64,000 nucleotides of DNA from Chloroflexota bacterium (GTDB lineage Bacteria > Chloroflexota > Anaerolineae > Anaerolineales > Anaerolineaceae): assembly GCA_009773005.1 (NCBI GenBank), contig WOUT01000017.1, forward strand, positions 1 through 64,000, read 5' to 3'. Below the pieces are notes generated by a model that was given only the letters and a program-made list of their open reading frames with translations, was not told the DNA's origin and ran no database searches. Position 1 is the first letter of the stretch; the number at the start of each line of letters is the position of its first letter. Shown here in pieces: positions 59,339-64,000 of the stretch. Position numbers and translations under genes: made by a program.

Positions 59339-60328
59339 ATGACTGATCAACTGTTAAATGTACAGAATCTGGAGACTATCTTTAAGACGCCGGAAGGCGT
59401 TGTTCACGCAGTTAACGGTGTTTCATTTAATTTGACTGAAGGAGAAACCCTTGGTGTTGTGGGAGAAAGCGGCTGCGGTAAAAGCGTCACTATGCTTTCA
59501 TGTCTGCGGCTCATTCCATCGCCTCCTGGCAAGACGGTCGCCGGAGAAGCCTTTTTCCACGGACAGGATCTATTAAAAATGTCGACGGAAGAAATCCGCA
59601 ACGTCCGCGGTGGGCAGATAAGTATGGTGTTCCAAGACCCCATGACCTCGTTGAATCCAGTCATGACAATAGGCAAGCAGCTTGCAGAACCGCTTATGCT
59701 GCACATGAACATGACCCGTGAACAAGCCCGCAAGCGCTCCATCGAGTTGCTTGGTTTAGTTGGAATTCCGAATGCGGGTGACCGGCTAAAAGATTATCCA
59801 CACCAGTATTCCGGCGGGATGCGGCAGCGGGTGATGATTGCGATGGCACTCTCCTGCAACCCGCAGATCCTGATCGCCGACGAACCTACCACCGCACTGG
59901 ATGTGACGATTCAGGCACAAATCGTAGAACTGGTCAAGCGCCTCCGTGATGAATTGGGCATGGCAATCATCTGGATCACTCATGATCTTGGCGTGGTGGC
60001 AAGCATCGCCCACCGCGTGGCGGTGATGTACGGCGGTTATATCATCGAAGACTCCGATGTAAAAGATTTGTATCTCAATCCCACCCATCCCTATACGCTT
60101 GGTTTATTGGGCAGCCTGCCCCAGATTAACGAAAAAGAGCATACGCGATTATTCTCCATTGAAGGGATGCCTCCCGTATTGTACAACAAACCGCAATCCT
60201 GCCCATTTGCTCCCCGCTGCACCTGGGTGACAGAACGTTGCTGGATCGAAAATCCGACCCTGGAACCGGTCTCCCCCGGACATCGAGTGGCTTGCTGGGT
60301 TGATACTAAAACCGGGAGTAAACGATAA
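59339..60328 (+). CDS. oppD: oligopeptide ABC transporter ATP-binding protein OppD/DppD
   Basis: 329 residues. Walker [11 protein letters not shown] near 43, [10 protein letters not shown], signature [12 protein letters not shown], Walker [14 protein letters not shown]-loop ITHDLG, and the C-terminal oligopeptide extension with four Cys positions (CPFAPRC...ERC...ACW) that can bind an Fe-S cluster. It powers peptide import with OppF, OppB and the binding protein downstream. One-base TAATG overlap with oppF. Confidence 0.93.
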
Positions 60329-61308
60329 TGACCGCTGATAATAACGTCCTGATTAAAGTTGAAAATCTTGTAATGCACTTTCCAATTTACCGCGGTGTCA
60401 TTCGCCGGAAGGTGGGCGCTGTTCATGCGGTGGATGGAGTTTCCTTTAAAATCCATCAAGGTGAAACACTGGGTTTAGTAGGTGAATCCGGATGCGGCAA
60501 ATCTACCACCGGACGTACGATCCTGCAGCTTTACAAACCATCTGCCGGCCATGTTTTCTACAAAGATAAAGATCTGGTCAATTTAAAACCAGAAGCCATG
60601 CGTATGATGCGGCGCGAAATGCAAATGATCTTCCAGGACCCTTATGCGAGCCTGAACCCTCGCATGACCTTGCGCGACATTGTCGGCGAGCCTTTGATGG
60701 CGTTCGGTGAAGCCGGCGGCAAACAAATTGATGAACGGGTTGCCAATTTACTTGAACTAGTAAAACTCAATCCTGATTTTGCCGGGCGATACCCACACGA
60801 ATTTTCCGGCGGGCAACGGCAGCGTATCGGTGTTGCCCGAGCGTTGGCATTAAATCCTTCGTTTATTGTTTGTGACGAACCCATTTCTGCTCTGGATGTT
60901 TCAATCCAGGCGCAGGTTGTTAATCTGCTCGAAGATCTACAAAAAGAATTAGATCTTACTTATTTATTCATTGCCCACGATCTTTCAATGGTGAGACACA
61001 TCAGCAACCGCGTGGCAGTGATGTATCTAGGTGTTATTGTTGAACTTGCTGACCGCAATGAACTTTACAACAATCCGCTTCACCCGTACACTCAAGCTTT
61101 ACTTTCAGCAATTCCGGTGGCAGATCCGGCTTTCTATAATAAACGTCACCGTATGGTTTTGGAAGGCGATGTGCCTTCACCTGTTAACCCGCCGTCCGGG
61201 TGCCGCTTCCGTACACGTTGCCCGATCGCTGATGGCTATTGTGCAGAAAAGAAACCCGAGTGGCGTGAAATCCGGCCAAATCACTTCGTGGCCTGTCATA
61301 AAGTATAA
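60328..61308 (+). CDS. oppF: oligopeptide ABC transporter ATP-binding protein OppF/DppF
   Basis: 326 residues. [15 protein letters not shown] near 53, [13 protein letters not shown], signature [29 protein letters not shown] and IAHDLSMV. The C-terminal cysteine motif reads [14 protein letters not shown]. Heterodimerises with OppD. In this operon the ATPases precede the binding protein and permease, an order common in several anaerobes. Confidence 0.93.
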
Positions 61309-61322
61309 CTCATGGCGTTTCT

Positions 61323-61334
61323 AAAGGAGGTGAT
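61323..61334 (+). promoter_or_regulatory. 12-nt perfect anti-16S (Shine-Dalgarno-like) sequence without a well-spaced start
   Basis: AAAGGAGGTGAT is the full complement of a typical 16S rRNA 3' end. The nearest ATG (61333, 35-codon frame ending at 61440 inside the next gene) is only 2 nt from GGAGG, too close for efficient initiation. The real binding-protein start at 61419 has its own AAGGAGG. It may be a ribosome standby or leader-peptide site. Confidence 0.5.
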
Positions 61335-61418
61335 GATAATTTCGGTTGAAAAAGCTTTTTTTCTGGCAACAAAGTACTCTTTCGATTCAAACGAATTTCT
61401 CACAAGGAGGAGAAACAA

Positions 61419-63470
61419 ATGCGTAAGTTATATGGTTTAATTGGTTTGTTGATGGTGATCAGCCTGGTGTTGTCTGCTTGTGCTAAACCAACCCCTGTTG
61501 CTGAAACCCCTGTTGCGGGAGAACCCGTTGTTACCGAAGAACCAGTGGTCGAAGAAGTTGTATTGAACCCATACCTTGGCTCTAACATGCTGGATGGTAA
61601 CGGCGCCCCCAACACGTTCTTTGATGATGTTCACATCCGCAAAGCATTCGCCTATTGCTTTGACTGGGATACCCTCATCAATGAAATTTGGAAAGGCGAA
61701 GCTGTCCAATCTAGGACGCTTGCACTGCCTGGCATGCCTGGCTATAATCCCGATCAAGCAGTCTATTCGATGGATTTAGCAAAATGCGAAGAAGAGTTCA
61801 AACTGGCTGACGTTGACAAAGACGGCATCCCCGCTGGCGAAGATCCCGACGATGTTTGGGAAATGGGTTTCCGCTTGCAGATGGGCTACAACACCGGTAA
61901 CACAACCCGGCAGCTCTATGCCGAGATCCTTCAGGGAAATCTTGCAACAGTTAACGATAAATTCACCCTCGAAGTTCTTGGTCTGCCCTGGCCTGCTTAC
62001 CTCGCTTCAGTACGCGCCAAGAAAATGCCCATCATGGTTGCCGGATGGTTGGAAGATATCCACGACGCCCACAACTGGTATCAGCCTTACACGACCGGTA
62101 CCTACGGTTCCCGACAGAACATGCCTGCTGAATTGAAAGAACAATTCGGGGCAATGCTGGATGAGGGCGTAGGCTATGTTGACCCAGCCAAACGCGCTGA
62201 GGTTTACTATAAATTCAATGAGTTGTACTTCAACGAGGTACCTGGCATCATCACCGTTCTGCCAACCTCACACGGTTATGAACAGACCTGGGTGCAGGGA
62301 CGTGTTTTGAATCCCATCTACTCTGGTGATGTTTTCAAGTTCATGTCAAAGGCTGCGGGAGCGAAGAACCCCACTGAATTGACTGAAGTCACTGCCGGTG
62401 ATCTCGACACTCTGGATCCCGCGCTCTCTTATGACACTGCCAGTGGACAGCTCATTCAGAACATCTACGAGACACTGGTCTTCTACGATGGCGTAAAGAC
62501 CGATGCCTTTGTCCCGATGCTGGCTACTGAAGTTCCGACTGTGGAAAATGGTGGAATCTCCGCTGATGGCACGGTCTGGACCTTCAAAATCCGCACCGGC
62601 GTCAAATTCCACGAAGGCGGCGATTTGACCCCGTCAGACGTTGCTTACTCCTTCCAGCGTGGTTTACTGCAGGGTGGACATTCCTCCCCGCAGTGGCTGC
62701 TGGCTGAACCCTTCTTTGGAATTGGCAATGATGACATTACCATGCTTGTGGACGAAGGCGCTTCTGCTGACGACCGCGAAGCCCTGCTCAAGAACGACGC
62801 CGCAGTCCTCAAGTCTGCTTGCGAAAAAGTTCAGGCTGCGATCGTTGCTGATGATGCTGCCGGCACGGTGACCATGACCCTTGCTCAACCCTGGGGTCCC
62901 TTCCTGGCGACCATCGCCAATGGCTGGGGTTCCGTTATGGACAAGGAATGGGTCATTGAAAAAGGCGGCTGGGATGGTTCCTGCGATACCTGGCAGAATA
63001 CCTATGCTGTGACATCCGCTGAAAACATCTTCACCCCGATTGCCAATGGCACCGGCGCCTACAAGCTGGATCATTGGACTCCTGGCGAGGAACAGGTTCT
63101 AACCAAGTTTGCTGGTTACTGGGGCGAGCCTGCTAAGTTGGATCGCATCAATCTCAAGCTTGTCAATGAGTTCGGTACCCGCTTCCAGATGCTTCAGCAG
63201 GGAGATGCCGATATCATCTATGTTCCCGCCGAGCAGCGACCACAGGTTGACCCATTGGTTGGTGAGCTTGCTGTCTATGATTTTGACACCCTCAGCTACA
63301 AAGCAGCAGTTCCAGTGTGCGGTTACGATAAAACACAGCTTGGTCAAGCCATGTACACCCCTTGTAAGGCTGGCGAGACTACAGCACAATCAAAACAATA
63401 TCTGCGCATCTACATGGGACGCCCTGCTTTATCACAGGATGTCTTGATCATGAACTTCAAAATCAAGTAA
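61419..63470 (+). CDS. family 5 peptide-binding lipoprotein with circularly permuted lobes
   Basis: 683 residues. A lipoprotein signal (LVLSAC, Cys21) and a Glu/Pro/Val linker to about 47. What follows is the normally C-terminal half of SBP family 5 (residues 49-311: GSNMLDGNGAPNTFFDDVHI, RKAFAYCFDWDTL, GYNTGNTTRQLYAEIL, the late PGIITVLPT, ending VFKFMSK). Only then comes the normally N-terminal half (about 312-683: GDLDTLDPALSYDTASGQLI, QNIYETLVFYDG, VWTFKIRTGVKFHEG, DVAYSFQRGLL, LMQ-like QGDADIIYVP, ending SQDVLIMNFKIK). Total length equals an unpermuted relative. AAGGAGG precedes the ATG. It should capture peptides for the Opp system. Confidence 0.88.
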   Translation: MRKLYGLIGLLMVISLVLSACAKPTPVAETPVAGEPVVTEEPVVEEVVLNPYLGSNMLDGNGAPNTFFDDVHIRKAFAYCFDWDTLINEIWKGEAVQSRTLALPGMPGYNPDQAVYSMDLAKCEEEFKLADVDKDGIPAGEDPDDVWEMGFRLQMGYNTGNTTRQLYAEILQGNLATVNDKFTLEVLGLPWPAYLASVRAKKMPIMVAGWLEDIHDAHNWYQPYTTGTYGSRQNMPAELKEQFGAMLDEGVGYVDPAKRAEVYYKFNELYFNEVPGIITVLPTSHGYEQTWVQGRVLNPIYSGDVFKFMSKAAGAKNPTELTEVTAGDLDTLDPALSYDTASGQLIQNIYETLVFYDGVKTDAFVPMLATEVPTVENGGISADGTVWTFKIRTGVKFHEGGDLTPSDVAYSFQRGLLQGGHSSPQWLLAEPFFGIGNDDITMLVDEGASADDREALLKNDAAVLKSACEKVQAAIVADDAAGTVTMTLAQPWGPFLATIANGWGSVMDKEWVIEKGGWDGSCDTWQNTYAVTSAENIFTPIANGTGAYKLDHWTPGEEQVLTKFAGYWGEPAKLDRINLKLVNEFGTRFQMLQQGDADIIYVPAEQRPQVDPLVGELAVYDFDTLSYKAAVPVCGYDKTQLGQAMYTPCKAGETTAQSKQYLRIYMGRPALSQDVLIMNFKIK

Positions 63471-63498
63471 ATTTTGAATTTTGCACATTAGTAATAAC

Positions 63499-63532
63499 TG
63501 CATGCGGGGACGTGATAAAGTCCCCGCATGCA
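63499..63532 (+). terminator. stable hairpin between binding protein and permease genes
   Basis: TGCATGCGGGGAC pairs perfectly over 13 bp with GTCCCCGCATGCA around an 8-nt loop. No T run follows, so it more likely protects the upstream mRNA and sets a high binding-protein to permease ratio than terminates outright. Confidence 0.65.
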
Positions 63533-63614
63533 ACACCAAATTTTGCCCTGCGGTATGCCTTGAACCTGTCGTTCAATTCATTCCGAACGGCAAAAACCAA
63601 GTTGAGGTGTATAA

Positions 63615-64000
63615 ATGACCAATTACATTATTCGCCGCTTGCTTCTCGTCCCGATATTACTGTTTGGGGTAACAGTGATTATTTTTGGACTGCTTCAATT
63701 TTTGGGCCCAGTCGAGCGGTCCGCGCTTTTTGTCAAGGACTTTCCCAAGAATGAAAAACAAATTCAAGGCATCATTCGCAATTATGGTCTTGATAAACCA
63801 GTGTATGAACAATACTGGATTTGGTTAACCGGACGGAAGGATGTTGTAACCGGTCAACGCAAGGGCGGAATTCTTTTTGGCGACTTTGGATACTCCAGAA
63901 CAGCATCGCAACCGGTGATCGATATCATCAAGAATCGTTTCCCAAATACCCTGGATTTAACCATCTGGGCAATATTCCCGATGTTATCAGTGGGTATCTG
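63615..64000 (+). CDS. oppB: oligopeptide ABC transporter permease OppB/DppB (partial)
   Basis: From the ATG at 63615 the frame is open for 128 codons to the window edge. It reads MTNYIIRRLLLVPILLFGVT VII..., the classic N-terminal helix of OppB-type permeases, then YGLDKPVYEQYWIWL and GDFGYSRTASQPVIDIIKNR FPNTLDL, the conserved periplasmic loop leading to helix 2. AGGTGT precedes the start. The permease channel of the peptide importer; oppC is expected next. Confidence 0.92.
   Translation, partial: MTNYIIRRLLLVPILLFGVTVIIFGLLQFLGPVERSALFVKDFPKNEKQIQGIIRNYGLDKPVYEQYWIWLTGRKDVVTGQRKGGILFGDFGYSRTASQPVIDIIKNRFPNTLDLTIWAIFPMLSVGI

Follow-up and report, generated by a model that had tools for sequence, protein, structure and literature searches.

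A family 5 binding-protein gene of a Chloroflexota bacterium with its halves in reversed order, very probably one of several natural circular permutants

Natural circular permutants have, in our judgement, mostly turned up as single oddities. One described case among bilobed binding proteins (SBPs) is TpMglB-2 (Tp0684), the "Type Ic / Cluster Bc" glucose-binding lipoprotein of Treponema pallidum, which is reported to be a natural circular permutation that binds its ligand and changes conformation on binding (PMC4990184). Its authors raise tethering as a possible reason for the permutation and state that the permuted part may derive from a different gene (PMC4990184). Searches of open PubMed Central texts, a collection that most subscription papers lie outside, listed no report of a family 5 circular permutant. 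The protein considered here is like the family 5 (cluster C) SBPs, e.g., DppA (1dpe) and OppA (1b05), in the sequence family of both its halves, and its operon, as in the DppA/OppA systems, has two oligo_HPY ATPases and two BPD_transp_1 permeases.

The window, i.e., the whole stretch of 64,000 nucleotides that was analysed, carries at 61419-63470 (+) an open reading frame of 683 aa with an ATG start and no internal stop. The features of the locus are as follows.

59339..60328, + strand: ABC transporter ATPase, OppD/DppD type (Pfam ABC_tran and oligo_HPY; NCBIfam OppD best, under its cut-off)
60328..61308, + strand: ABC transporter ATPase, OppF/DppF type (Pfam ABC_tran and oligo_HPY; NCBIfam OppF best, under its cut-off)
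61404..61410, + strand: ribosome-binding-like AAGGAGG ahead of the ATG (read from the sequence)
61419..61562, + strand: lipoprotein-type signal peptide (LSAC lipobox) and Pro/Glu/Val-rich linker, residues 1-48 (sequence)
61563..62351, + strand: former C-terminal half, residues 49-311, DppA ~273 to the C-terminus (Pfam 194-365, PDB phmmer, DppA mapping)
62340..62370, + strand: new internal joint, former C-terminus to former N-terminus within a few residues (sequence, alignment, DppA mapping)
62352..63467, + strand: former N-terminal half, residues 312-683, native N-terminus to DppA ~272 (Pfam 2-185, model matches)
63615..64000, + strand: start of a DppB-type permease, truncated by the window (complete in L188)

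AAGGAGG is a putative ribosome-binding motif, and the protein start MRKLYGLIGLLMVISLVLSAC with its LSAC lipobox would be of the lipoprotein type; those orthologues whose start is included in the alignment begin similarly to residues 1-48. Beyond the window (L188), the DppB-type permease is complete and is followed by a DppC-type permease and then by a second SBP_bac_5 gene of the operon, which is in normal order (L188:10833-12818).

A Pfam scan of the window protein at E up to 0.01 matched SBP_bac_5 alone, in two stretches with 200 bits in total against a cut-off of 32.4. In the whole-genome profile run each stretch exceeds the curated cut-off by itself: positions 61560-62105 correspond to profile 194-365 (75.6 bits) and 62508-63248 to profile 2-185 (127.1 bits), i.e., the order is reversed, with 194-365 ahead of 2-185. 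A phmmer search against the PDB relates residues 67-300 to DppA 275-496, residues 375-414 to DppA 51-96 and residues 482-603 to DppA 133-240; among the best 60 of its 62 matches, no best stretch spans residue 311/312. The first-pass annotation, made from the letters of this DNA, had proposed reversed halves, which both the profile order and the PDB matches bear out; no normal N-to-C order emerged from the profile alignment. The junction that it had placed near 62349 agrees with residue 311/312 (codon 312 starts at 62352). The native-type joint that it had read from the two ends, SQDVLIMNFKIK / VVLNPYLGSNMLDG, is correct: the last residue aligns to DppA 272 and the first core residue, picked by hand for this alignment, to DppA 273.

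The protein passes the profile cut-off of the family 5 SBPs (PF00496) and departs from their N-to-C order; judged by its sequence, it is a circularly permuted relative of PF00496 rather than a regular member. Every family segment occurs once, in rotated order and within a single chain; the order is kept across independent genomes, and there is homology to unpermuted proteins. A chance origin of the order is excluded by the match scores and by the conservation of the order in many genomes. The case is also an annotation issue: Pfam renders the protein as two stretches, and all of its matches to NCBIfam, ten models in number, score far under the respective cut-offs.

The first-pass annotation had advised looking for the order of the window gene, hereafter type A, in related genomes; it is present there, and the relatives are not always unpermuted. 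The 38 related loci of the genome_contigs set comprise 23 permuted, 12 normal and 3 fragments, and one of the permuted loci (L058) is that of the isolate Longilinea arvoryzae KOME-1. The query P0001 is matched in a single frame over positions 1-682 in 10 of 61 genomes, the window's own included, with some loci of this set and of the 38-locus set belonging to the same genomes. At least 19 of the 251 genomes of the order have two P0002 pieces ordered as expected for type A. When 22 permuted proteins are aligned, their chain ends agree to a residue or two, the common end lying directly after the strand that closes the former N-terminal half; the chain of the window protein stops directly after the strand DVLIMNF. 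Identity in the main clade without fragments is 65-75% for the C-half and 62-73% for the N-half, and the normal-order L062 is 62-68% identical to the window protein. In one clade, Anaerolineaceae and relatives, the permuted order has very probably become fixed.

Since the genome of the window is a draft of 105 contigs, like many of its relatives, the order could in principle stem from an assembly or binning artefact joining pieces of two gene copies. However, many separate assemblies, including that of an isolate, show it again, in proteins of 53-71% identity, and other permuted types sit in genomes listed with one contig (G047, G283, G489). An assembly join at the junction, which the first-pass annotation had named as a refuting result, does not fit a junction that recurs in many assemblies; we have discarded the artefact as the source of the order and give it virtually no credence. 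It is also very improbable, in our opinion, that two separate half-proteins or a broken gene are present instead of one functional SBP. The two Pfam stretches may create that impression; nonetheless, the gene is a single intact reading frame with a single signal peptide, both halves are conserved at similar identity, and the operon is complete.

The complete ATPase-ATPase-SBP-permease-permease order is found in 20 of the 23 type A loci examined. The exceptions are L040, where the 4 kb upstream of the gene lack an ATPase of this kind, L055, where the ATPases lie downstream on the opposite strand, and L200, where the stretch ends inside the SBP gene. The same complete order is found in 8 of 11 normal-order loci (L062, L063, L065, L066, L068, L071, L110 and L117), the available stretch beginning inside the operon in the other three (L069, L070, L111). 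By Pfam the operon is of the Opp/Dpp type, with ABC_tran plus oligo_HPY twice and BPD_transp_1 twice. The operon neighbours in L062 are 71-81% identical to those of the window gene. Considering that normal-order relatives occupy the same transporter-operon slot, we believe that the window gene was probably permuted in place, within a conserved slot. The proposal of a natural circular permutation is supported by the profile order, by the orthologues and by these normal-order relatives.

As a separate observation, in four normal-order relatives (L069, L070, L110, L111) the operon has two SBP copies flanking the two permeases, and an SBP2-like gene comes next in the operons of L069, L110 and L111.

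According to a PF00496 census, the window's genome has six such genes. Three are normal; the other three are permuted, each at a different site, and are the window gene and two genes outside the window: G000:C37 (L002, L189; type E), with profile 290-367 ahead of 2-292, and G000:C33 (L006, L190; type D), with profile 62-359 ahead of 3-59. A profile made from 13 normal-order proteins also classes these three genes as permuted; over 207 loci, a sample drawn mostly with permuted queries, it classes 93 distinct proteins as permuted and 62 as normal. At least one gene with two Pfam stretches reversed on one contig is present in 13 of the 15 genus genomes, as counted by hand with type G excluded and with G006 (pieces on two contigs) and G007 uncounted. 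Frequencies outside these two censuses are biased by the queries. The normal-order controls, which are also outgroups in the half-trees, were four relatives on plasmids of Deinococcus, Athalassotoga and Ensifer; all four are normal, as expected, and DppA, the reference for the cut sites, is normal by definition. In sequence searches of solved structures, no best stretch spans a permutation joint among the best 60 of 62, 76 and 84 matches.

With starts and joints set by hand, the cuts lie on DppA at ~121 (type D), ~167 (F), 272/273 (A), ~277 (C), ~343 (B) and 345/346 (E). For type D, 21 of 121 phylum genomes match the query P0004 along almost its entire length. A full-length match to type B (P0002) occurs, among the matches listed, in one of 251 genomes (G027). 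Two genomes (L122, L123) showed type F, and eight loci (L034-L037, L039, L176, L187, L193) showed type C; at E 1e-30 the type C query P0003 matched 1 of 121 phylum genomes, and that one is in normal order. Type H is a single protein (L245:1190-3238, minus strand, G092) with profile 199-670 followed by 63-179; it belongs to the subfamily of the window protein and is cut near the type D site, in the domain II loop of DppA rather than at the hinge. Type G is probably a further cut site (L234-L241). It comprises lipoproteins of 847-984 aa from eight genus genomes, one of them cut at a contig end, which bear an extra C-terminal part. The first Pfam stretch is found in these eight of the 15 genus genomes and both stretches in three; the second is under the Pfam cut-off in those three of the eight and absent in five, and custom profiles yielded no match for L240 and L241. 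In the Bacillota, L208:2830-4620 (OY725879.1, a plasmid record of Subdoligranulum variabile) is permuted with a cut at about DppA 123. When P0004 was compared with plasmid records, 1703 matched; a single place covers at least 80% of the query in four of them, of which one was read. The stretch of the plasmid record that holds the L208 gene has no listed genes.

Several composite proteins were seen in passing. By Pfam, permuted type D SBPs stand behind a second binding protein in L177:1220-3730 (SBP_bac_3) and L203:2662-5535, minus strand (SBP_bac_1), and another stands behind Peripla_BP_6, only the later part of which is in frame (L141:1477-3810, minus strand). Normal-order family 5 SBPs follow a Ser/Thr-type kinase in L209:1382-4543 and WD40 repeats in L213:968-4564 (both minus strand, Pfam), as if they were used as sensor domains. 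Long front parts also occur in L210, L211, L212 and L214, that of L212 being kinase-like by eye. For the type C protein L187, a LysM-like front part suggested by eye was dropped, as Pfam gave no match.

In a tree of 63 proteins arranged in normal order, the 30 type A rows occupy four positions, with normal genes between them; a single type A clade is rejected (dlnL 300.8, p-AU 1.3e-60; quick tree, LG+C20); a single origin of the type A order is therefore rejected under the model used. This tree and the half-trees leave out L031 (long branch) and L059 and L105 (partial), and the comparative sets drop near-identical copies from the same genomes and proteins under the length or score limits. The trees of the N-half and the C-half agree on the main features. 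In both, the main clade is close to L062/L066/L112/L119, L118 is beside L095/L096 (weakly in the C-half), L097 is near L109, and L061 is near L022 with weak support; L091, L103 and L104 switch between the main clade and normal neighbours.

Alternatively, in place of independent permutations at one site, type A was permuted once, early, and several lineages reverted or exchanged sequence with normal paralogues. The shared loop cut of the type A proteins speaks for such a history, as do the operons with two SBP copies described above, which make exchange possible, and the three proteins that change sides between the half-trees. We nevertheless hold it to be unlikely, given the rejection of the single clade on the quick tree, the positions of L118 and L097 near different normal genes in both half-trees (and, weakly, that of L061), and the fact that a return to normal order would take another event of this kind.

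A quick tree of 90 further proteins (LG+G4), for which the program warns of long branches, shows type C as one clade adjoining the normal L127, type D as 40 rows with one normal protein (L151) among them, and type E as one clade inside D; L208 is apart, with normal genes. Type E proteins have roughly 13-20 extra residues at the cut of type D relative to DppA and four normal-order proteins; the comparison is with normal-order proteins, the type D rows being trimmed at this cut. The nesting of E in D and the longer loop at the former ends of D fit a passage of E through D, and by these sequences type E looks like a permuted protein that was permuted again. The separate cases of site and lineage are eight (A to F, H and L208).

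Circular permutants can arise by duplication. For the window gene we presume, as the most likely route, that an in-frame tandem duplication of the SBP gene followed by the loss of the outer parts would have produced the type A order. This is the simplest route, because each permuted order that was read can be cut as one continuous segment out of two tandem copies and because type D applied twice gives type E. The first-pass annotation had suggested the same, and the duplication agrees with the half-trees; its bare form fails at the C-to-N joint, where just a few residues link the halves and a second signal peptide is absent, so that the route requires either a further deletion or a duplicated unit that lacked the signal peptide. 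No N-C-N-C fusion intermediate was found among the loci read, which included 19 additional stretches chosen for their long or doubled SBP frames; those of 973-1199 aa proved to be SBPs in normal order preceded by an additional front part, named by Pfam in two of them. Among direct repeats of at least 14 bases in 61300-63620, the search for a DNA scar gave two two-copy families, neither of which marks a joint: a 27-base repeat (74% alike) with copies at 62565-62591, at no joint, and 63438-63464, at the gene end, and a 15-base repeat inside the linker.

Altogether, we consider it very probable that the window gene encodes a lipid-anchored SBP of a Dpp/Opp-type importer and is a natural permutant, fixed in its clade, which arose in place by tandem duplication with outer loss and is one of several.

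The type A cut falls on E. coli DppA (mature numbering) at 272/273, after the strand YLSYN and before KKPLDD. The lobe borders of DppA/OppA presumably put the first lobe crossing just before this point, and hence both crossings would be kept, with the termini and the lipid anchor shifted to lobe 2, in which the cut itself is to be placed. The chain would begin in lobe 2 right after the first crossing and run to the native C-terminus, pass directly into the native N-terminus, and stop once the strand leading back into lobe 2 is complete. The N-terminal lipid anchor would leave lobe 2 near the hinge instead of lobe 1. The protein probably has the DppA/OppA fold with both hinge strands kept. An AlphaFold model built from 21 permuted rows has a mean pLDDT of 66.5; most of residues 310-670 are good, and the first half is poor, mostly below 60. 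Among solved family 5 SBPs, it is their first part that model residues 308-680 resemble (best match 7kz9_A residues 27-320, with Z 22.4 and rmsd 2.2 over 242 residues), which, as far as a model goes, fits the permutation. The model of the normal-order L062 (pLDDT 54.1, 10 rows) was discarded as a structural comparison. The fold of the first half and the lipidation may be presumed, and by its family and operon the protein would serve an importer. The permutation might also affect the hinge and substrate release, as had been suggested.

Whether it matters to the cell at all is an even question in our estimate: the permutation may be a neutral by-product of duplications in lipoprotein operons, without functional effect. 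Permuted and normal orthologues take the same operon slot, and the cuts lie in loop-like, variable stretches of the alignment, both of which suit neutrality; retention in many genomes, in turn, is compatible with neutrality and adaptation equally.

It is tempting to propose that the Chloroflexota permute family 5 SBPs repeatedly, in at least eight cases of lineage and site (A-F and H, with the D-like protein of the Bacillota), probably with G as a ninth and with one re-permuted, and that relocation of the anchor was perhaps selected. We advance this tentatively, as a reading with rather less than an even chance. If it is true, the point of tethering would tune the meeting of the binding protein with its importer. 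Beyond the single gene, the picture widens to recurrent circular permutation of one SBP family, with three cut sites within one genome. The unpermuted orthologues in the same slot of neighbouring lineages form natural before-and-after pairs, which can be used to study the influence of termini and lipid tether on folding, closure of the hinge and delivery of the substrate, as well as the way in which permutations originate.

Among the nearest comparisons are the normal-order sisters: L062, L066 and L021 have 58-68% identity per half and L119 has 60-65%, all in normal N-to-C order, and L062, L066 and L117 (the L021 gene) occupy the same operon slot as the window gene. Unlike DppA and OppA, the window protein has its halves reversed and its termini at DppA 272/273 instead of in lobe 1; this position would be in lobe 2 next to the hinge. 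The Type I/cluster B homology that would define a "Cluster Bc" protein is absent, SBP_bac_5 being the sole Pfam match at E up to 0.01. Set against TpMglB-2 as reported, the window protein is likewise a naturally permuted, lipoprotein-type and presumably bilobed SBP; unlike that Type I, cluster B protein, it belongs to family 5, both its halves come from one gene lineage, and its family has been cut at several sites.
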